In this document: positions 1 through 33,006 of the stretch, piece after piece | How positions within the stretch are numbered: position 1 is the stretch's first letter | Layout of the letters: every line of letters begins with the position of its first letter | Virus record (IMG/VR): IMGVR_UViG_3300032087_004119 | Coordinates: 1 to 33,006 of that record | From: a virus | Strand: one strand, 5' to 3' | DNA length: 33,006 nucleotides | The notes under the pieces: generated by a model | What the model saw: only the letters and a program-made list of their open reading frames with translations | What the model was told of the DNA's origin: nothing | The model's database searches: none | Program-made: the position numbers and the translations under genes

Positions 1-91
1 AGCGAGAAAGGGAGCCGGGCGCAAACCAAAGGCCGACGAACATAAAACAACCGAGATTTTCAAAATTGCGTTGCGTGAAATATACGACGTT
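1..91. repeat. 91-bp terminal direct repeat, left copy
   Basis: Bases 1-91 are identical to bases 32916-33006. The repeat lies inside the small terminase gene and joining the ends keeps the reading frame open, so this is the overlap left when a circular or circularly permuted genome is assembled. A true packaged terminal repeat is possible but less likely, because it would cut a coding gene. Confidence 0.95.
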
Positions 92-280
92 CAGACGGAC
101 GACGACGCGAAAAAAGAATTTACAAAGGATTTATTAAAGTTTTCCCGGGGCCAATTATTCATTGCTGAACACCTATTTGGCAAACCAAAGGAAAACGTTG
201 ATTTAAACGTTAGCAAACGCCCGGATTTAAGCCACCTAACAACGGACGAATTAAGGGACCTTTTAGATAATGACGAATGA
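1..280 (+). CDS. Terminase small subunit, 3' portion (gene split by contig ends)
   Basis: This is the main part of the small terminase; its start lies at 32890 at the other end of the window. Joined across the circle it encodes 101 residues. Frame: codons begin at base 2. The N-terminus is rich in G, R and K (GARKGAGRKPK), like the basic DNA-binding N-termini of small terminases, followed by acidic helical sequence. It overlaps the large terminase by 11 bases, the usual TerS-TerL arrangement. TerS recognises viral DNA and regulates the large subunit during packaging. The call rests mainly on position, size and the basic start, since small terminases are poorly conserved. A TTG at 71 also opens this frame but would discard the basic region. 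Confidence 0.8.
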   Translation, partial: ARKGAGRKPKADEHKTTEIFKIALREIYDVQTDDDAKKEFTKDLLKFSRGQLFIAEHLFGKPKENVDLNVSKRPDLSHLTTDELRDLLDNDE

Positions 281-1619
281 AATTAAACGCATATTATTCG
301 CTGAATTAGCCGCCCGGGACTTTTGGGCGTTTTGTCGTTATTATGATCCGGAATTTTACCGCGAACGTAAATTTTTAAAAGAGGTTGCCACGGCCTTACA
401 GGAAGTTGAGGAGGGAAAAATAAAATCTTTGTCCGTATCAATGCCACCAAGGGCCGGAAAATCTTACATAACGTCGTTATTTTGCGCGTGGACCATTGGG
501 CGGAATCCGACCGAATCCGTAATGCGAAACACCTGTACCGCGACATTATACCAAAAATTTAGTTACGACGTCCGGGCAATAGTAAAGAGCGACAAATTTA
601 GGGAGGTTTTCGACGTCAAGTTATCAACAGACAAAGCCAATTTAGGCGGTTGGAACACGGACACGGCCAAAATGGTTTCATATTTTGGAGCCGGCGTTGG
701 AGGTACAATAATAGGTTTTGGAGCGTCAAAAATAGCAATTACCGACGACCTTTATAGGGGCATTGAGGACGCATTGAGCGACACCGTAAACGATAGGATT
801 ATACAATGGAAAGAATCAACGCACGATTCAAGATTTGAATCCGGGTGCGCTCGAATCGACATTGGGACGCGTTGGAGTTTAAACGATATTATTGGCCGAT
901 CATTCGAGGCCAACGAATACGATAAAAGTATTATCATAGCGGCATTGGACGAGAACGATAAAAGTTTTTGCGAGGCCGTAATGACAACCGAGGAATATTT
1001 AGACAAACGTAAGAAAACGGAAAAATCAATTTGGTTGGCTGAATACCAACAAAAACCCGTTGACGTTGAGGGGCGTTTGTTCGATAACTTACAAACCATT
1101 GAGCCGGACGAATTAAACACGGACAAAATAGAGGGCGCAATTGGTTACGTTGACGTTGCGGACCAAGGCAAAGACTATACGGCCGCCGCAATAGGCGTTT
1201 TGATTGGTTCTAATATCTATATTGTCGAAACGTTTTTTAGCAAGGATAACACCGATATAACAATGCCACAAATCGCCGCAATGCTCAACAAATGGAACGT
1301 TAGTTATTGTCGCGTCGAATCCAATAGTATGGGCGCAATGTTTGCCCGGACGTTGCAACGGTCAACAAAGGCTCGAATATTACAGATAACAAACCAAACG
1401 AACAAAATAACGCGAATCATTATGCAAAGCGCGTTTATCAAAAGCCAATTTATATTCGTTAACAGATCAACGCCCGGTTATTTACAATTTATGGAAAACG
1501 TTTATTCGTTCAGTAAAGAGGGCAAAAACAAGAACGACGACGCGCCGGATTGTTTGGCCGGTTTGTCAATGTTTGCCCAAGGAATGTTCAAAAACTTGTT
1601 TAATTCGTGGGCGGCCTAA
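270..1619 (+). CDS. terL: Terminase large subunit (ATPase and nuclease)
   Basis: Packaging motor that pumps DNA into proheads through the portal and cuts concatemers. The 449-residue protein shows a Walker A motif PPRAGKS (residues 59-65), a Walker B-like strand KIAITDD (154-160) and the downstream IGTRW element (about 198-202). A C-terminal RNase H-like nuclease domain follows, with acidic residues in GYVDVAD (D295, D298), RVESN (E350) and DDAPD (D423-D427). The length is normal for the family. The start overlaps the TerS stop. The gene after it on the same strand is a small accessory cassette, not the portal, which is on the opposite strand. Confidence 0.96.
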   Translation: MTNEIKRILFAELAARDFWAFCRYYDPEFYRERKFLKEVATALQEVEEGKIKSLSVSMPPRAGKSYITSLFCAWTIGRNPTESVMRNTCTATLYQKFSYDVRAIVKSDKFREVFDVKLSTDKANLGGWNTDTAKMVSYFGAGVGGTIIGFGASKIAITDDLYRGIEDALSDTVNDRIIQWKESTHDSRFESGCARIDIGTRWSLNDIIGRSFEANEYDKSIIIAALDENDKSFCEAVMTTEEYLDKRKKTEKSIWLAEYQQKPVDVEGRLFDNLQTIEPDELNTDKIEGAIGYVDVADQGKDYTAAAIGVLIGSNIYIVETFFSKDNTDITMPQIAAMLNKWNVSYCRVESNSMGAMFARTLQRSTKARILQITNQTNKITRIIMQSAFIKSQFIFVNRSTPGYLQFMENVYSFSKEGKNKNDDAPDCLAGLSMFAQGMFKNLFNSWAA

Positions 1620-1643
1620 AATTTTTTTAATTTTTTTTTAGTC

Positions 1644-1672
1644 TTGAAACACTTGTAAACAAAGGGATTCAG
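1644..1672. repeat. 29-bp imperfect intergenic element, copy A
   Basis: This stretch just after the large terminase matches 9692-9720 at about 22 of 29 positions. The shared cores are TGAAAC, CTTGTAAACA and TTCAG. Both copies start some 25 bases after a structural gene, are flanked by runs of T or A, and lie upstream of a TATATTTG promoter driving a small accessory cassette. The role is unknown; it could be a protein-binding site, a 3' processing or termination signal, or an insertion-junction remnant. Confidence 0.6.
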
Positions 1673-1706
1673 AAAAAAATGTATAAAAAAGTGAATTATT
1701 TTATTG

Positions 1707-1744
1707 TTTGATAGTAGGATATTGAATATATATTTGTATATTTG
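1707..1744 (+). promoter_or_regulatory. Bacteroidota-type promoter of the first accessory cassette
   Basis: TTTG at 1707-1710 and TATATTTG at 1729-1736 are separated by 18 bases and match the Bacteroidota -33/-7 consensus. A second TATATTTG lies at 1737-1744. The transcript would have an A-rich leader ending in AAACAAAACAAAATG at the gene starting at 1774, nearly the same leader as at 24848 and 29409. Confidence 0.75.
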
Positions 1745-1773
1745 AATGTAGAAACAATTTAAAACAAAACAAA

Positions 1774-2022
1774 ATGACAACAGAAACACAGGCACCGGCA
1801 ACAATTGAGATCGATTTAGGATTTATCGGACCAAAGGCAAGAAAATTGCAAATGCTTTTTAAAGGTTATAGCACCGAACCAAACGAAAACGGATATTTTT
1901 TAGCGTTTCACAATTATTCGCATTTAGTAGTAAACCAAGGCGTTTATGTTTTAACAAACTGTTTTGAAAGTGAGGAGCAATTTTTGGAAACATTACACAG
2001 CAAACTTTTATTAAACTTTTAA
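1774..2022 (+). CDS. Hypothetical protein, first gene of accessory cassette
   Basis: An 82-residue protein that I do not recognise. It is mixed alpha/beta with no signal peptide or membrane segment; the C-terminus (EEQFLETLHSKLLLNF) is probably helical. It starts with an A-rich leader behind a strong TATATTTG promoter and is followed by a GC-rich hairpin and two further small genes. The cassette separates the large terminase from the portal, a position where phages often carry accessory (moron) genes. Being promoter-proximal with a hairpin directly behind, it may be made in larger amounts than the genes after it. No function is assigned. Confidence 0.75.
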   Translation: MTTETQAPATIEIDLGFIGPKARKLQMLFKGYSTEPNENGYFLAFHNYSHLVVNQGVYVLTNCFESEEQFLETLHSKLLLNF

Positions 2023-2029
2023 TAACACC

Positions 2030-2050
2030 GGGGGCCATTGCGCCCCCTTT
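2030..2050 (+). terminator. GC-rich hairpin, terminator or attenuator
   Basis: GGGGGC (2030-2035), a six-base loop and GCCCCC (2042-2047) are followed by TTTAAAA. The hairpin lies between the first and second genes of the cassette, 8 bases after a stop codon. The T tract is short, so partial termination fits best. The same GGGGGC-type hairpin follows the first gene of the operon at 24848. Confidence 0.6.
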
Positions 2051-2063
2051 AAAACTTTGAATT

Positions 2064-2372
2064 ATGGCTTGGAATGATTTAACATATAACGAAAAATTAA
2101 ACATTAACTTACCGCGTTATTGTCGTAACATAGCAAACGACAACCGGTTAAAATGTATTAAAAACCTTGATATTGATCCGGTTGACCTATTGCCGGAAAA
2201 ATGGTCTAAATTAGATTTTGAGCAACGTTTGGAGTTGCGCCAACAATTGGTAAATTTAGCAAACAAGGCCGAGGCGGTCCGCCGTGAAGCGTGGAGGGCG
2301 GCGAATCCTAACTTTAAGGAACAGGAAACAACGATCGAAATGGTTTACAGGGTAGCCGGAAAATCAAGTTAA
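2064..2372 (+). CDS. Hypothetical protein, second gene of accessory cassette
   Basis: A 102-residue protein of unknown function. It is mostly helical and charged; the middle (residues about 48-78, WSKLDFEQRLELRQQLVNLA) looks like an amphipathic helix or short coiled coil. There is no signal peptide. The ATG lies 17 bases after the GC-rich hairpin, and the stop codon overlaps the start of the next gene (TAATG), so the two are probably translationally coupled. Confidence 0.72.
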   Translation: MAWNDLTYNEKLNINLPRYCRNIANDNRLKCIKNLDIDPVDLLPEKWSKLDFEQRLELRQQLVNLANKAEAVRREAWRAANPNFKEQETTIEMVYRVAGKSS

Positions 2373-2581
2373 TGGAACAGAAACAACCAAACAACGCCGT
2401 TTTATTCGTTTTAACGGCGTTTTTTCTTTTTGTCTTGTATTGTGTACTATCGACAAAGAAACGACCGGAAAACGGATATATTAAGGAAATATCAAACCGG
2501 GAATTAAACCGGATAGAGGGAGTAAACTATTTAAACCCTTACAGGCCCAATAACGCGCGTTGTTCATCTTCTGTTAATTGA
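2372..2581 (+). CDS. Small single-pass membrane protein
   Basis: A 69-residue protein with one hydrophobic segment near the N-terminus (residues about 9-27, VLFVLTAFFLFVLYCVL), then KKRP and a polar, asparagine-rich C-terminal half. This topology predicts a small inner-membrane protein with its basic side in the cytoplasm. The start overlaps the previous stop. Its last 43 bases run tail-to-tail into the 3' end of the portal gene on the other strand. The function is unknown; membrane proteins in accessory cassettes sometimes alter the host envelope, but nothing here shows that. Confidence 0.65.
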   Translation: MEQKQPNNAVLFVLTAFFLFVLYCVLSTKKRPENGYIKEISNRELNRIEGVNYLNPYRPNNARCSSSVN

Positions 2582-3744
2582 ACGCCGGCCGTTTGAATCT
2601 TATTAAGGGCGTCGGCCTTTGTGTTTAATACATTCGCGGCCTCCTCCTCATTTTCCTGTAATACGTGAACGTGCGAAAAGTCAGCAACCAATCGTAAACC
2701 CTCCTTATCCAAACCAAGTTGTTCGCCGATATTGTCGTACATTGCCTGTGTTTCCGGAATGATCGTATCACTATAAACCATTCGTAAACCGTCCCGGACA
2801 TTGCTAAACGTTGCGCCCCGTTCTTGGCTGAAAACGTGAATATTAAGGCCGAACGCGTCCACAATTGCGAGTTTATCGGCGTTTAGTTCCTCAAATAATA
2901 ACAAATCTTTTGTTGGGTACGACATAGGTTGCCAATTAACATCGGATTCCGTTATTATTAATTCGTCTTTGCTCCTCCTATACCAATCTTTTTGAATTTG
3001 TTTTTTATCGTCCGGCGTCATAGGAATCGCGCCCCCAATGTCAGAATTTCGAGCCGATAAAATACCAATTGCGCCGATATTTTCCAACAGAACGTTTCTT
3101 TTATGATAACTTGCTTTAATGTTTGAAAGCGGATATTTGAGCGATTCCAAACGCGACGACGGATTAATTAAATTAATACCGTCCGGCGTCATTAAATAGA
3201 CTACTTCGTTAACGTCTAAATTTTCCTTTTCGCCGTCGTCGTAGCAAAACACGAATTTCTCAATATAACCGTCAACCGTTGTTTGTTTTAACGTTTTCCC
3301 GGTTGTCATTATCTTAATACGATCGGAGGGCAACGGCTGAAATTGCGTAACAATGCCAAACGATCTTTTGGGAGCGTAGGCAAAAGCATTTGAAAACAAA
3401 GCGTCGTTTACTGAAAGCATAAAAACAACGTCCGCCCAAGTTTGCGTTGCGTTGGGTTGCCGTATAAGGTCCAAAAACCAATGCGATTCGATTTTATTGC
3501 CGTCTTGATCGTACAAACAGGGTTTATTTGCAGACATCATTGACGCCCTTTTATTTACAACCGCCCGTAATTCCGGAATTTCGACGTAATGTTTAAAAGC
3601 GTCCCCGGTATCAATCCAAACGGCCGTTTTTTGTCCGAAAATTCTAGTATTATATTCGCGAAATTGGTTAATAAAACGTTGGTTTGTGAGCCACTCAAAA
3701 CCAAAAAACGATTGCCAAAAGTTTAAATTCGATCCGTTTTGCAT
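2539..3744 (-). CDS. Portal protein, HK97-like
   Basis: Forms the ring at the capsid vertex through which DNA is packaged and ejected. The 401-residue product has features of the Phage_portal family (PF04860): an N-terminal region with PELRAVVNKRASMMS, the segment FMLSVNDALFSNAFAYA, the stem region around LSNIKASYHKRNVLLENIGAIGILS (about residues 205-230), and a C-terminal segment with NADKLAIVDAFGLNIHVF and NVRDGLRMVYSDTIIPE. The length is normal. It is the only gene on the minus strand, although its partners (terminase, protease, capsid) are on the plus strand. It has its own divergent promoter box at 3766-3773, and its 3' end overlaps the preceding cassette. Confidence 0.93.
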   Translation of the reverse strand: MQNGSNLNFWQSFFGFEWLTNQRFINQFREYNTRIFGQKTAVWIDTGDAFKHYVEIPELRAVVNKRASMMSANKPCLYDQDGNKIESHWFLDLIRQPNATQTWADVVFMLSVNDALFSNAFAYAPKRSFGIVTQFQPLPSDRIKIMTTGKTLKQTTVDGYIEKFVFCYDDGEKENLDVNEVVYLMTPDGINLINPSSRLESLKYPLSNIKASYHKRNVLLENIGAIGILSARNSDIGGAIPMTPDDKKQIQKDWYRRSKDELIITESDVNWQPMSYPTKDLLLFEELNADKLAIVDAFGLNIHVFSQERGATFSNVRDGLRMVYSDTIIPETQAMYDNIGEQLGLDKEGLRLVADFSHVHVLQENEEEAANVLNTKADALNKIQTAGVQLTEDEQRALLGL

Positions 3745-3765
3745 AATTTTTTAAGAATATTAAGA

Positions 3766-3783
3766 CAAATTTAGTTAATTTTG
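3766..3783. promoter_or_regulatory. Back-to-back divergent -7 boxes (portal / protease)
   Basis: CAAATTTA at 3766-3773 reads TAAATTTG on the minus strand, and TAATTTTG is at 3776-3783 on the plus strand; both fit TAnnTTTG. They are 2 bases apart in the 58-base gap between the divergent portal and protease starts. RNA polymerase could probably not occupy both at once, so their expression may be mutually exclusive. I see no clear -33 TTTG for either. Confidence 0.55.
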
Positions 3784-3802
3784 TTATGAATATTTGCAAT
3801 TT

Positions 3803-4864
3803 ATGGAAAAAACGATAACGGCGTATAGTTTAAAAGGCCAAAACACGGTCTTAAAAGATTTTGACGAGGCGAGCCGAAAAGTGGCCGTTTATTTGTCAGC
3901 GTTCGACCAATTGGATAGCGACAACGATATAATAAGACGCGGAGCGTTTACAAAGAGTATTAAAGAGCGTGGCCCGGGTTCAACGTCAAATCGACAAATT
4001 GCGTTTTTAAGATACCATAATTGGGAAATGCCAATTGGGAAGTTTTTAGAATTATCGGAGGACGAAAAGGGCCTTTTTGCCGTTGGCGAGTTGGGCAATA
4101 GTACGTTGGGCGCGGACGCGTTGGCGGATTATCAAGACGGAATAATTAAAGAACATTCAATTGGTTTTCAGTACATCAAAGACAAAGTGAAATTCATTGA
4201 CGATCCGGGATTGGAAACGGGCGGTTATTACGAAATAACGGAGGTTAAACTTTGGGAGGGTTCGGCCGTTACGTTTGGAGCGAATGAATTTACAAACGTT
4301 GTCGAGGTTGCCAAAAGCGAGGGCAAAGAATCGACGGCGCAACGAATAAGTAACGAAATTGATCTAATTGGTAAAGCGTTAATTAACGGACAAGGGACCG
4401 ACGAACGTTTACACAATTTAGAAATGAAATTAAAATTTTTGAACGCGCAATTGTTAACACTTGCGACAACGGAACCGTTTAAAAAACATTCCGTAAAGAG
4501 CGAGCCGGAAATAAAACCGTTGGCGTTCAATTGGGAAAAGGTAGGCGATTTTTACGAAAAACAAACGTTTAAAGACTATCCACAAAGCGCGGTTAATAAC
4601 GCAAAAAAAGGAATCGAATTAAACGAGGCGGTAAATAACAAGTGCGCCACGGCCGTAGGAAAACAACGCGCCCGGGACATTGTAGCAAAACGCCCATTTA
4701 GTTTGGACACCTTGAAACGCGTTTATTCTTATTTATCGCGAGCAAAAGAGTATTACAACGCAAACGACGAAAAGGCGTGCGGAACAATTAGTTATCTTTT
4801 GTGGGGAGGCGAAGCAATGCGAGTTTGGAGCCAAAATAAACTTACCGAATTAGAGAATAATTAA
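3803..4864 (+). CDS. Prohead protease with C-terminal accessory domain
   Basis: Caudovirus prohead serine protease (S78/U35, HK97 family) that cleaves the capsid N-terminal scaffold during maturation. With the ATG at 3803 it has 353 residues; an upstream TTG at 3794 is less likely. Catalytic signatures are RYHNWEMPIG (H72) and KEHSIGFQ (S119), followed by WEGSAVTFGAN (about 151-161). The protease core ends near residue 175. Charged helical sequence follows, then a separate domain (about 259-353) with DYPQSAVNNAKKGIELN, CATAVGKQRARDI and YLLWGGEAMRVW. I have seen this type of C-terminal domain attached to other phage head proteins but know no function for it. The capsid gene follows directly, as usual. 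Confidence 0.93.
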   Translation: MEKTITAYSLKGQNTVLKDFDEASRKVAVYLSAFDQLDSDNDIIRRGAFTKSIKERGPGSTSNRQIAFLRYHNWEMPIGKFLELSEDEKGLFAVGELGNSTLGADALADYQDGIIKEHSIGFQYIKDKVKFIDDPGLETGGYYEITEVKLWEGSAVTFGANEFTNVVEVAKSEGKESTAQRISNEIDLIGKALINGQGTDERLHNLEMKLKFLNAQLLTLATTEPFKKHSVKSEPEIKPLAFNWEKVGDFYEKQTFKDYPQSAVNNAKKGIELNEAVNNKCATAVGKQRARDIVAKRPFSLDTLKRVYSYLSRAKEYYNANDEKACGTISYLLWGGEAMRVWSQNKLTELENN

Positions 4865-4868
4865 TAAT

Positions 4869-4876
4869 TAAATTTG
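4869..4876 (+). promoter_or_regulatory. Probable capsid promoter, near-leaderless
   Basis: TAAATTTG (TAnnTTTG) lies in the 17-base gap between the protease and capsid genes, ending 5 bases before the capsid ATG at 4882. If used, transcription would begin at or within a few bases of the start codon. Confidence 0.5.
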
Positions 4877-4881
4877 TAAGA

Positions 4882-6117
4882 ATGTCAGAAAATAATATGA
4901 CACCGGAGCAAGTGATTGAAAAAATAAACGATTCAATCGCGGCAAAAACAGACGGGTTCGCAAGATCGGAGGAAATCGACGGTTTAAAAACGGACCTTGC
5001 AAGCGTTAAAGAAATGATTGCAAAAGGAAACGAAAACGACGACATCGACGCCCTAAAAAGCGCAATTGCCGGAGTTGAGGCGTCAATTGACGGTTTGAAA
5101 GAGGCGAAAAAAGAAACACCAAAAGCGAGATCATTGGGCGAGGCGATAACAAACGCGTTCGTTTCAGCAAAAGAGGCGATTTTGGAAATGTCAGAAAAAG
5201 GCGGAACGGTTAAACTAGACGTTAAAGCGGCCGGAACAATGACAATCGCCGGAAATTATAGCGGAGGAACCGTTGGACTTTCCGACCTTGAAACAGGGTT
5301 AACAAGAATCCAAAGACGCGCGCCATTTATGCGCCAATTGGTAAACACAAGAGGAACAACAAGCAAATATGTTGTTTGGATTGAGCAAGCAAACGCCGAT
5401 CCGGGAGAGGCCGGACAAACGGCGGAGGGAACCGAAAAAACGCAAACGGATTTCGATTTAGTAGAGCGTTCAAGCGAGGTTAAGAAAACAACCGCGTACA
5501 TTAAGGTTTCAAAAGAAATGTTGGCGGACATTCCATTTATGCAAGGCGAGATCAACGGCGAGTTAATGGAGTTGGTTGAGTTGAAACTTGACGAGCAAAT
5601 TTTACTTGGCGACGGAACAGGAAATAACCTTTCCGGTATTGATTCAGTTGCAACGGCATTTGCGGCCGGTACTTTTGCGTTGAGCGTTCCACAAGCGAAC
5701 AATAGCGACGTTTTAAGAGTTGCTATTTCTCAAATTGCAAACGCTAATTTCTCGGCTAATTATATTCTATTGAATCCGGCAGACGCGGCGGCAATGGAGT
5801 TAACAAAAGACACGAACGGACAATACACTTATCCGGTATTTGTTAACGAGGCCGGAATGTCAGTTAAAGGTATTCCGGTAATTGAAAATCCGGGAGTTAC
5901 GGCCGGGAATTTTTACGTTGGGGACTTTACGAAATCTAATTTAAGAATCCGTGAGGAAATGAACGTACAAGTAGGTTATGTAAACGACGATTTTACGAAA
6001 AACTTGGTTACGATCCTTTGCGAAACGCGTGCGTGCCATTTCGTTAAAACGAACCATTATGGGGCGTTTGTAAAAGGCGATTTTGCGACGGCGATAGCGG
6101 CAATTGATAAACCATAA
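4882..6117 (+). CDS. Major capsid protein, HK97 fold
   Basis: Main shell protein, 411 residues (Phage_capsid family, PF05065). Residues 1 to about 105 are highly charged and helical, with repeated DGLK-type segments; this matches the N-terminal delta/scaffold domain removed by the prohead protease. The folded part shows the expected signatures: an E-loop region around RRAPFMRQLVNTRG, LLGDGTGNNLSGI (about 240-252), YILLNPADAAAMELTKD and the P-domain region KGIPVIENPGVTAGNFYVGDF. It sits directly downstream of the protease, has a possible private promoter, and is followed by a GC-rich hairpin, consistent with high separate expression. Confidence 0.95.
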   Translation: MSENNMTPEQVIEKINDSIAAKTDGFARSEEIDGLKTDLASVKEMIAKGNENDDIDALKSAIAGVEASIDGLKEAKKETPKARSLGEAITNAFVSAKEAILEMSEKGGTVKLDVKAAGTMTIAGNYSGGTVGLSDLETGLTRIQRRAPFMRQLVNTRGTTSKYVVWIEQANADPGEAGQTAEGTEKTQTDFDLVERSSEVKKTTAYIKVSKEMLADIPFMQGEINGELMELVELKLDEQILLGDGTGNNLSGIDSVATAFAAGTFALSVPQANNSDVLRVAISQIANANFSANYILLNPADAAAMELTKDTNGQYTYPVFVNEAGMSVKGIPVIENPGVTAGNFYVGDFTKSNLRIREEMNVQVGYVNDDFTKNLVTILCETRACHFVKTNHYGAFVKGDFATAIAAIDKP

Positions 6118-8796: not shown

Positions 8797-9666
8797 ATGA
8801 AAATTATTAGAGAATCGCGAAACGTTCACGTTTTAAAACTTTCCGGGAATGATTCAAGAATTGCTATTTTGTCCGATTTACATTGGGACAATCCAAAGTG
8901 CGACCGGAAAACGTTAAAAAAGCATTTAGATTTTTGTGTAAAAAATAATATTCCAATAGTTGTAAACGGCGATTTTTTCTGTTTAATGCAAGGCCGATAT
9001 GATCCAAGGCGTAATAAAAAAGACATTCGCCCGGAACATAATACGCACGATTATTTGGACGCGGTTATTAACACGGCCGTCGATTGGTTCAAACCATACG
9101 CGAACAATTTAGTTTTGATAGGTTACGGAAACCACGAAACAGGAATAATAAAAAATCTTGAAACCGATCCGTTACAACGATTCGTTGACGCGTTAAACCG
9201 CGAGAAAAACACGAATATACAAACGGGAGGTTACGGCGGTTGGTTGGTTATTCAACAGGAGTTAAGCACCAATAAAATGACTTCCACGAAAATAAAATAT
9301 TTTCACGGTTCCGGGGGCGGAGGAATAGTAACAAAGGGAGCGATAAATTTAACGCGAGCGTTGGAAACGTTCGAGGGTTACGACGTTTTCACAATGGGAC
9401 ACATTCACGAAAATAGCGCACGAAACGACGTAAGGGATTGTTTAAGGCATACCGGAAAAGCCGGCTATACTTTGGAGCAAAAACAGATTCATTCAATGAT
9501 AACCGGGACGTACAAAGAGGAATACGAGGACGGCGCGTTTGGTTGGCACGTTGAAAGGGGCGCACCGATTAAGCCAATAGGGGGCCGAATCCTACAAATT
9601 TACACCGGACACAAAGAAAAACGCCTCGAAAAGTCGATAACAAGTTACAAATTTCCGATTTCTTAA
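8797..9666 (+). CDS. Calcineurin-like metallophosphoesterase
   Basis: A 289-residue protein with all the metal-binding motifs of the Metallophos superfamily: SDLHWD (D27, H29), NGDF (D59), GNHE (111-114), YFHG (H170) and GHIH (201-204). It should hydrolyse phosphodiesters or phosphomonoesters with two metal ions; the substrate cannot be read from sequence, and DNA, nucleotides or RNA ends are all possible. The start is the ATG at 8797, since an earlier in-frame ATG (8767) lies inside the terminator/promoter. It is an autonomous unit with its own promoter between tail genes, so it is either an accessory gene or expressed with a timing unlike its neighbours. No signal peptide is present, so it acts in the cytoplasm. 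Confidence 0.9.
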   Translation: MKIIRESRNVHVLKLSGNDSRIAILSDLHWDNPKCDRKTLKKHLDFCVKNNIPIVVNGDFFCLMQGRYDPRRNKKDIRPEHNTHDYLDAVINTAVDWFKPYANNLVLIGYGNHETGIIKNLETDPLQRFVDALNREKNTNIQTGGYGGWLVIQQELSTNKMTSTKIKYFHGSGGGGIVTKGAINLTRALETFEGYDVFTMGHIHENSARNDVRDCLRHTGKAGYTLEQKQIHSMITGTYKEEYEDGAFGWHVERGAPIKPIGGRILQIYTGHKEKRLEKSITSYKFPIS

Positions 9667-24777: not shown

Positions 24778-24808
24778 TTTGCAGTTAATATATTTTTGTA
24801 TATATTTG
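24778..24808 (+). promoter_or_regulatory. Strong Bacteroidota-type early promoter
   Basis: TTTG (24778-24781), a 19-base spacer and TATATTTG (24801-24808) give the best match to the -33/-7 consensus in the window. The leader has AACAATT repeated (24818-24832 region) and ends AAAACAAAACAAAATG. It probably drives the early operon. Confidence 0.8.
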
Positions 24809-24847
24809 AATTGTCGAACAATTATTGAACAATTAAAACAAAACAAA

Positions 24848-25210
24848 ATGAACAATTTAGATTTAGAGACACTTTTAAAACAATGGTACGAACGAACACA
24901 AGAAAAGAGAATCAAAAAAGGATTCGTAAAAGCTAAAAGTATTCAAGAAATATGGAATAACGAGAATTTAAAACGTACCTATGCAGACGCGAGTAGTTGG
25001 ATAACAAGTAAACAAGTTAAACTTTTTCAAGCAATATTTTACAAAAAATGTAAAGAGTTTTACTGTTTTCAAGCAAATTATCCAATATTTTTAAATACTG
25101 CAAAAGACGGATCATTTACAGATGAAACAATAGTAGTTAGAGTTTACCAAAATTCAAATGGTGCGGCCGTTATAGATTTTAAACGTGCTAGAAGATACAC
25201 GGGGGCATAA
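24848..25210 (+). CDS. Hypothetical early protein
   Basis: A 120-residue protein, starting at the ATG at 24848 after the A-rich leader; an earlier in-frame ATG (24779) lies in the promoter. The N-terminal half is basic and helical (LLKQWYERTQEKRIKKGFVKAKS) and the C-terminal half beta-rich (ETIVVRVYQNSNGAAVIDF). Codon use is more AT-biased than in the structural genes, and the gene contains one of only two AGCT sites I could find. As the first gene behind the strongest early promoter it may be a host-takeover protein, but the sequence does not show this. Its stop codon lies in the loop of a terminator. Confidence 0.75.
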   Translation: MNNLDLETLLKQWYERTQEKRIKKGFVKAKSIQEIWNNENLKRTYADASSWITSKQVKLFQAIFYKKCKEFYCFQANYPIFLNTAKDGSFTDETIVVRVYQNSNGAAVIDFKRARRYTGA

Positions 25211-29350: not shown

Positions 29351-29380
29351 TTGTTGTTAATTCATAAATGTATATATTTG
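29351..29380 (+). promoter_or_regulatory. Promoter of the recombination operon
   Basis: TTG (29351-29353), a 19-base spacer and TATATTTG (29373-29380) match the Bacteroidota promoter. The leader contains AACAATTTAAACGAAACAAAATG, close to the leader before 1774. It drives the small gene at 29409 and ERF, exonuclease and SSB. Confidence 0.75.
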
Positions 29381-29408
29381 TTTCAGTTAACAATTTAAAC
29401 GAAACAAA

Positions 29409-29567
29409 ATGAAAGGAAGTAGCATTGAACAAATTGAGCAAAAAATCTGCAAAGCGTTAAACGTTAATTATAACGATTTTGTAAAAATGACATTTCAAGA
29501 GCAAACAAAAATCCGCGCACGTTATACGACGGAAATAAGCGGTTTAAAATTCAAACAACATAAATAA
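29409..29567 (+). CDS. Small hypothetical protein (52 residues) heading the recombination operon
   Basis: ATG at 29409 directly after the A-rich leader, stop at 29565-29567, ERF gene 9 bases later. The product (MKGSSIEQIEQKICKALNVN, ending SGLKFKQHK) is helical and basic at the end. No family is recognised. Position directly behind a consensus promoter and the tight spacing make it a credible gene despite its size. Confidence 0.65.
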   Translation: MKGSSIEQIEQKICKALNVNYNDFVKMTFQEQTKIRARYTTEISGLKFKQHK

Positions 29568-32889: not shown

Positions 32890-33006
32890 ATGTCAACAAA
32901 GGGAAAACACGGAGGAGCGAGAAAGGGAGCCGGGCGCAAACCAAAGGCCGACGAACATAAAACAACCGAGATTTTCAAAATTGCGTTGCGTGAAATATAC
33001 GACGTT
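32890..33006 (+). CDS. Terminase small subunit, 5' portion (continues at base 1)
   Basis: True start of the small terminase: ATG at 32890, reading MSTKGKHGGARKGAGRKPKA and on into the repeated 91 bases. The frame is identical to that at the left edge, so the complete gene is 32890-32915 joined to 1-280, 101 residues. The glycine/arginine/lysine-rich start resembles an AT-hook-like DNA-binding tail. It is preceded by a TAACTTTG box and a small hairpin. Confidence 0.8.
   Translation, partial: MSTKGKHGGARKGAGRKPKADEHKTTEIFKIALREIYDV
32916..33006. repeat. 91-bp terminal direct repeat, right copy
   Basis: Identical to bases 1-91. Removing one copy gives a circular genome of 32,915 bp. The preceding bases (32890-32915) supply the true start codon of the small terminase gene, which is missing at the left edge. 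Confidence 0.95.

Follow-up and report, generated by a model that had tools for sequence, protein, structure and literature searches.

A lone inverted portal gene and a predicted bidirectional promoter in the head module of a clade of uncultured phages

Introduction

Why should the portal gene of a tailed phage stand alone on the opposite strand, inside a head module whose terminase, protease and capsid genes all run the other way? The head module ranks among the most conserved gene orders of tailed phages, and it is debated whether co-expression, co-assembly or simple inheritance keeps it so. The IMG/VR record IMGVR_UViG_3300032087_004119, the whole of which (33006 bases) was analyzed and is hereafter called the window, presents such a portal. 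A sequence-only reading of this DNA had proposed that the gene possesses its own divergent promoter, separately controlled and holding its level low. Here, the locus is compared with those of related phages.

Results

The first and last 91 nt of the window (1-91 and 32916-33006) form an exact direct repeat, and the record is therefore a complete, circularly mapping genome. Its gene set is that of a siphophage, with a TerL, portal, S78 protease, HK97-type capsid, tape measure, DnaB-like helicase, Erf-like annealing protein and SSB. Forty-six of the 47 called genes are located on the plus strand and the portal gene is the only one on the minus strand, flanked by TerL on one side and by the S78 protease and the HK97-type capsid on the other (Table 1), just as the sequence-only reading had described it. 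The portal identity, judged from the profile matches, is secure. By Pfam and PHROG the content of an HK97-type head module is present, namely a portal, an S78-type protease and an HK97-fold capsid near TerL, but its organization as a single transcription unit on one strand is not, the portal being on the minus strand. At its 5′ end the portal gene diverges from the protease, with 49 bp to a TTG at 3794 and 58 bp to an ATG at 3803, the latter being the likelier protease start. At its 3′ end it converges and overlaps with an accessory cassette of three small ORFs, for which Pfam and PHROG searches returned no match. Both junctions agree with the earlier description, while the span of 2539-3783 given there for the portal gene needs correction at one end: the ORF (minus strand) spans 2539-3744 and position 3783 is the last base of the promoter palindrome treated below.

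Table 1. Coordinates of the head genes, the accessory cassette and the predicted promoter elements in the window.
Feature	Position	Strand	Evidence or remark
Terminase large subunit (TerL)	270-1619	+	phrog_38, E 2e-77; PF22530
Accessory cassette, three small ORFs (1774-2022, 2064-2372, 2372-2581)	1774-2581	+	content differs among relatives
Overlap of convergent 3′ ends, 69-aa ORF and portal gene	2539-2581	.	43 bp
Portal protein gene, 401 aa	2539-3744	-	PF04860, E 8e-24, near-full profile; phrog_2662, phrog_12 portal, PHROG E 3e-33
Pseudo-palindromic promoter core CAAATTTA-GT-TAATTTTG (CAAATTTAGTTAATTTTG)	3766-3783	.	predicted bidirectional
-7 box TAAATTTG, portal transcript	3766-3773	-	predicted start near 3761 by flavobacterial geometry
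-7 box TAATTTTG, protease-capsid transcript	3776-3783	+	predicted start near 3788
Prohead protease, Peptidase_S78, divergent partner of portal	3803-4864	+	PF04586, E 1e-22
Major capsid protein (MCP), HK97 type, Phage_capsid	4882-6117	+	PF05065, E 3e-40

A protein search of IMG/VR led to 31 relatives of the portal. Over several searches, from the lists of which the totals were tallied by hand, the inverted portal (opposed to TerL and/or to protease and MCP) was detected in about 56 other IMG/VR contigs, and about 70 collinear relatives have all four genes on the same strand. In the inverted contigs that carry both TerL and protease, the portal is opposite to both. Two contigs from other samples (L002 and L003) share the inversion with 99-100% identity over the region and represent the same virus in independent assemblies. 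Portal sequences of the inverted contigs as a whole have diverged to 45-60%, and the non-coding DNA of the joint is conserved. Since the contig is metagenomic, a mis-assembly or chimera might be suspected, and the sequence-only reading had asked whether the same order recurs in related phages. It does, and the number of contigs, the two nearly identical assemblies, the extent of the divergence and the conserved joint DNA led us to reject an assembly artefact, the probability of which is practically nil. The inversion is real and heritable, beyond chance.

Every distant relative examined has the collinear order: Tenacibaculum phage JQ, Flavobacterium phage stinky9-1 and the locus L042 of a Flavobacterium MAG. 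The stretch read of Polaribacter phage Danklef_1 does not include TerL and has portal and MCP on the same strand. For this reason the collinear order is, on the sequences compared, the ancestral one, and the premise that a portal usually shares the strand of its neighbors holds in the collinear sister lineages as well as in the named flavophages. In a tree of 99 portals, all inverted ones form one clade (support 100/98). A second tree of 84 portals (37 inverted), to which a subclade represented by L155 was added and from which near-copies were removed, also presents one inverted clade (100/96) and one orientation change, and a single change was recovered in 200 of 200 bootstrap trees of the portal. 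The MCP tree likewise has one change, while the TerL and protease trees have two and three, respectively, with no well-supported branch forcing more than one. Two changes seen in the first portal tree were a long-branch artefact caused by L134 (25% identity, branch length 10), which was removed. No reversal to the collinear order was found in the 37 distinct inverted portals. Because all inverted phages constitute one clade of the portal tree, these phylogenies point to one ancient inversion of the portal gene, retained across a large clade of uncultured phages.

The sigma-A -7 box of Bacteroidota is TAnnTTTG, refined in F. johnsoniae to TAHHTTTG at -12 to -5 (PMC6847099; see also PMC9723704 and PMC7366714). 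Two such boxes stand back to back, 2 bp apart, between portal and protease, and CAAAnnTA-NN-TAnnTTTG occurs as a single copy in the 33006-base window. Both arms match TAHHTTTG and the consensus is that of Bacteroidota, the host affiliation itself being inferred partly from this motif. With F. johnsoniae geometry, transcripts starting at the predicted positions would have leaders of ~15-17 nt. Both arms thus fit the -7 box of sigma-ABfr promoters, whereas a clear -33 element (TTTG or TTG) is absent on the plus side: a TTG at suitable distance is found on the minus side (3799) and none on the plus side, F. johnsoniae promoters showing this element poorly and its conservation in flavobacteria being low (PMC6847099).

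De-duplication left 26 inverted intergenics, and 21 of them contain the exact double box, compared to a mean of 0.002 in dinucleotide shuffles; when sought in the collinear loci it was found in none. It lies 18-24 nt from the portal ATG in 19 of the 21 and mostly 9-24 nt from the protease ATG, and G never occupies the nn positions of the boxes, as TAHHTTTG requires. The five intergenics without the exact pattern are those of L043, L074, L087, L052 and L090. TTTA replaces TTTG on one side in L043, L044, L074 and L087, the spacing is 1 bp in L052 and 3 bp in L100 and L122, and L090 retains both boxes in a different order. Symmetric core elements directed toward both flanking genes, a trait of bidirectional promoters, are found in these 21 intergenics and in the DNA-only scans described below, and the divergent promoter postulated at the 5′ end of the portal gene is supported by this conserved pair.

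The palindrome could also be the operator of a phage regulator and not two -7 boxes at all, as it is an 18-bp dyad with A/T flanks, a classic operator size, and L050 and L065 have further ATTAGATTTTAATCAT repeats alongside. We regard this as quite unlikely, given that either arm makes a complete TAHHTTTG box by itself, as far from its gene as a promoter would be, and that the remaining bases are weakly or not symmetric (nn positions symmetric in 9 of 20 vs. 5.4 expected; middle bases 6 vs. 6.5 expected). An operator would not survive the 1- or 3-bp spacing of L052 and L100 or the reordered boxes of L090, and these exceptions fit two promoters better than one operator. As an additional role, an operator would still overlap both promoters.

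Concerning the level of the portal, the inversion may have been selected for removing a protein needed in 12 copies from the capsid operon and for keeping its level low. The portal is indeed separated from the protease-capsid transcript, and the inversion has been retained over great divergence. However, both -7 boxes match the consensus and stand at similar distances from their respective start codons. In its A content the portal leader equals that of the protease. Favourable leader adenines (-3, -6, -12, and -13) have a mean of 0.61 for inverted portals, 0.59 for proteases and 0.57 for collinear portals, so nothing indicates that the portal leader has been weakened, and the collinear relatives do without any inversion. 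Selection for dosage control is thus unlikely and the proposal that the promoter holds the portal low was not borne out. Separate control is doubtful as well: with 2 bp between them, the two -7 boxes form a single element common to both sides, and for that reason the portal and protease-capsid transcripts are more likely to be coupled or in competition than to be independent.

Other promoter-like sites were also observed. TAnnTTTG boxes are located at 1729 and 1737, upstream of the accessory cassette. A promoter-leader module, consisting of TATATTTG boxes and then a leader ending AACAATTTAAAACAAAACAAAATG, is present in three copies (1726-1778, 24790-24852, and 29351-29413) and precedes three different small genes, which perhaps form one co-regulated set. 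At 4869-4881, 5 nt separate the end of a -7 box (TAAATTTG) from the MCP ATG, with a similar case (4 nt) at gene 10387; a second capsid promoter at this site would give a nearly leaderless MCP mRNA. In the portal-protease intergenics of L050 and L065/L066, the portal leaders are longer, and ATTAGATTTTAATCAT-like dyads recur next to the double -7 box, where they may be the operator of a regulator in this sublineage.

Two exact DNA patterns derived from the promoter sequence, with 18 fixed bases each, were searched for across 2.9 million viral contigs. The first matched 26 stretches, 12 of them at an inverted portal-protease joint, and its remaining matches lie within genes or beside unrelated genes. 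The second matched 32 stretches, 20 of them at such a joint, and three of its remaining matches belong to one other divergent intergenic on three contigs. Both patterns together gave 58 stretches, 32 at inverted portal-protease junctions. Since these DNA-only scans find inverted-portal members unseen by the protein search, including the L155 subclade, the non-coding element predicts the gene arrangement. This subclade (L155, L151, L161, L190-L206) has proteases 53-63% identical to that of the window and an MCP only ~28% identical, and the capsid gene adjoining its conserved promoter joint may have been replaced or be fast-evolving.

The convergent joint behaves differently. All 66 collinear loci have a TerL-portal gap of 34-80 bp; in 27 inverted loci this gap measures 8-2708 bp and accommodates zero to about eight extra ORFs; the collinear joint of Tenacibaculum phage JQ has insertions too. 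The break of the operon seems to have opened the convergent joint to insertions. In L005 it contains a phosphoesterase gene related to window positions 8797-9666. The position of this gene (PHROG DNA repair exonuclease) varies among the relatives (window 8797-9666, L005:2731-3588, L019:926-1804, L031:2075-2944), as it follows the head genes in some, precedes TerL in others or lies in the TerL-portal gap. A conserved terminator was sought at the convergent joint and none was found, T-tailed hairpins being restricted to a small number of loci (window, L052, L005, and L033). A scan of positions 1500-5000 for sigma-70 promoters and terminators gave no more matches than shuffled sequences, sigma-70 being the wrong promoter type. 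Both portal orientations exist among the relatives, as they would if the portal lay on an invertible segment flipped by recombination like a phase switch. Such a switch is very improbable, as no notable inverted repeats flank the gene (in the region, no arms exceed 30 nt, at 70%), the tree has one orientation change, and the collinear relatives have no promoter pair and keep their tight joint.

Discussion

We consider it highly probable that the portal was inverted once and has been conserved so, that the portal and protease-capsid transcripts arise from one bidirectional promoter and that the convergent joint gathers accessory genes. Directly visible in the sequences are the inversion, the fact that it arose once and has persisted, the conserved pair of boxes and the variable convergent joint; two-way activity of the boxes, use of host sigma-A, mutual exclusion and any functional consequence are predictions. 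In the common ancestor of the clade, the portal alone was inverted between TerL and the prohead protease, splitting the head operon in two. The new 5′-5′ joint would be served by one bidirectional promoter with two back-to-back sigma-A (sigma-ABfr type) -7 boxes, and we infer that host RNA polymerase, through its sigma-A, could sit on it in either orientation, producing a short-leader portal mRNA leftward and the protease-capsid operon mRNA rightward. Because the boxes are 2 bp apart, only a single polymerase at a time would occupy the site; the two transcripts would come on jointly and, under strong use, could compete with each other. In E. coli, competition is confined to strongly activated bidirectional promoters and does not occur at basal ones (PMC12825309); activity late in infection may be strong enough for competition. 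That mutually exclusive polymerase binding at the 18-bp -7/-7 site sets the ratio of portal to protease-capsid transcripts, and thereby tunes head stoichiometry, is a tentative proposal that we hold to be possible though doubtful. The convergent TerL-portal joint, freed from its operon role, has accumulated a varying set of small genes.

The above concerns how, and not why, the inversion arose, and is compatible with a neutral rearrangement, in which a chance inversion was fixed once and the promoter pair restored expression and was kept for two essential genes, with no regulatory gain. To this we give an even chance. The single event and the loose and variable arrangement of the convergent joint speak for it, whereas the near-constant 2-bp spacing and the lack of reversals suggest more than tolerance, although a conserved essential promoter would give the same picture. 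The host is probably a member of the Bacteroidota, according to the promoter motif and a weak kinship with flavophages. A search of genome contigs for the host returned two loci only, one on a "Rhodobacteraceae" MAG contig and one on a distant Flavobacterium MAG contig. The former, the collinear relative L041 (RFQY01000125.1), is probably phage DNA in the wrong bin.

The phages presented here share genes, order and homologous proteins with the HK97-type head module (TerL, portal, S78 protease, MCP) of Tenacibaculum phage JQ, stinky9-1 and the collinear sisters, but their portal is alone on the opposite strand and a predicted promoter separates it from the protease. In P2-like phages, where portal Q and terminase P are opposite to scaffold O and capsid N, transcription of the portal likewise leads away from the capsid genes, with a divergent intergenic between them; KL3, for instance, has O on the minus strand and P and Q on the plus strand (PMC3091744). 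Portal and terminase ATPase are adjacent and co-directional in those phages (PMC3091744), whereas here the portal is alone and opposed to TerL too, and a joint opposition of portal and terminase ATPase to the capsid was not found, TerL being on the capsid strand. The bacterial bidirectional promoters described by Warman, Grainger, and co-workers (PMC12825309) have a similar pseudo-symmetric core, with opposite-strand starts and two-way polymerase binding, both predicted in our case. Those promoters share one symmetric sigma-70 -10 element, whereas here two complete sigma-A -7 boxes are predicted from the sequence. An isolated inverted portal was sought in the open-licence literature and none was found, the P2-like phages being nearest (PMC3091744), an absence that constitutes weak evidence. 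HK97 head genes, Bacteroidota promoters and bidirectional promoters are known parts; a lone inverted portal, fixed throughout a large clade together with a conserved two-way promoter, did not turn up in the open literature examined.

The 18-base non-coding signature offers a way of finding such phages without a protein search, and it provides a naturally conserved example of a predicted two-way promoter, probably from Bacteroidota. Apart from that, the clade amounts to a natural experiment. It persists without a co-directional portal, a conserved, predicted two-way promoter having taken the place of that arrangement, and it can be set against a matched collinear sister group, so that one can test whether the portal has to be expressed together with TerL or with the capsid.
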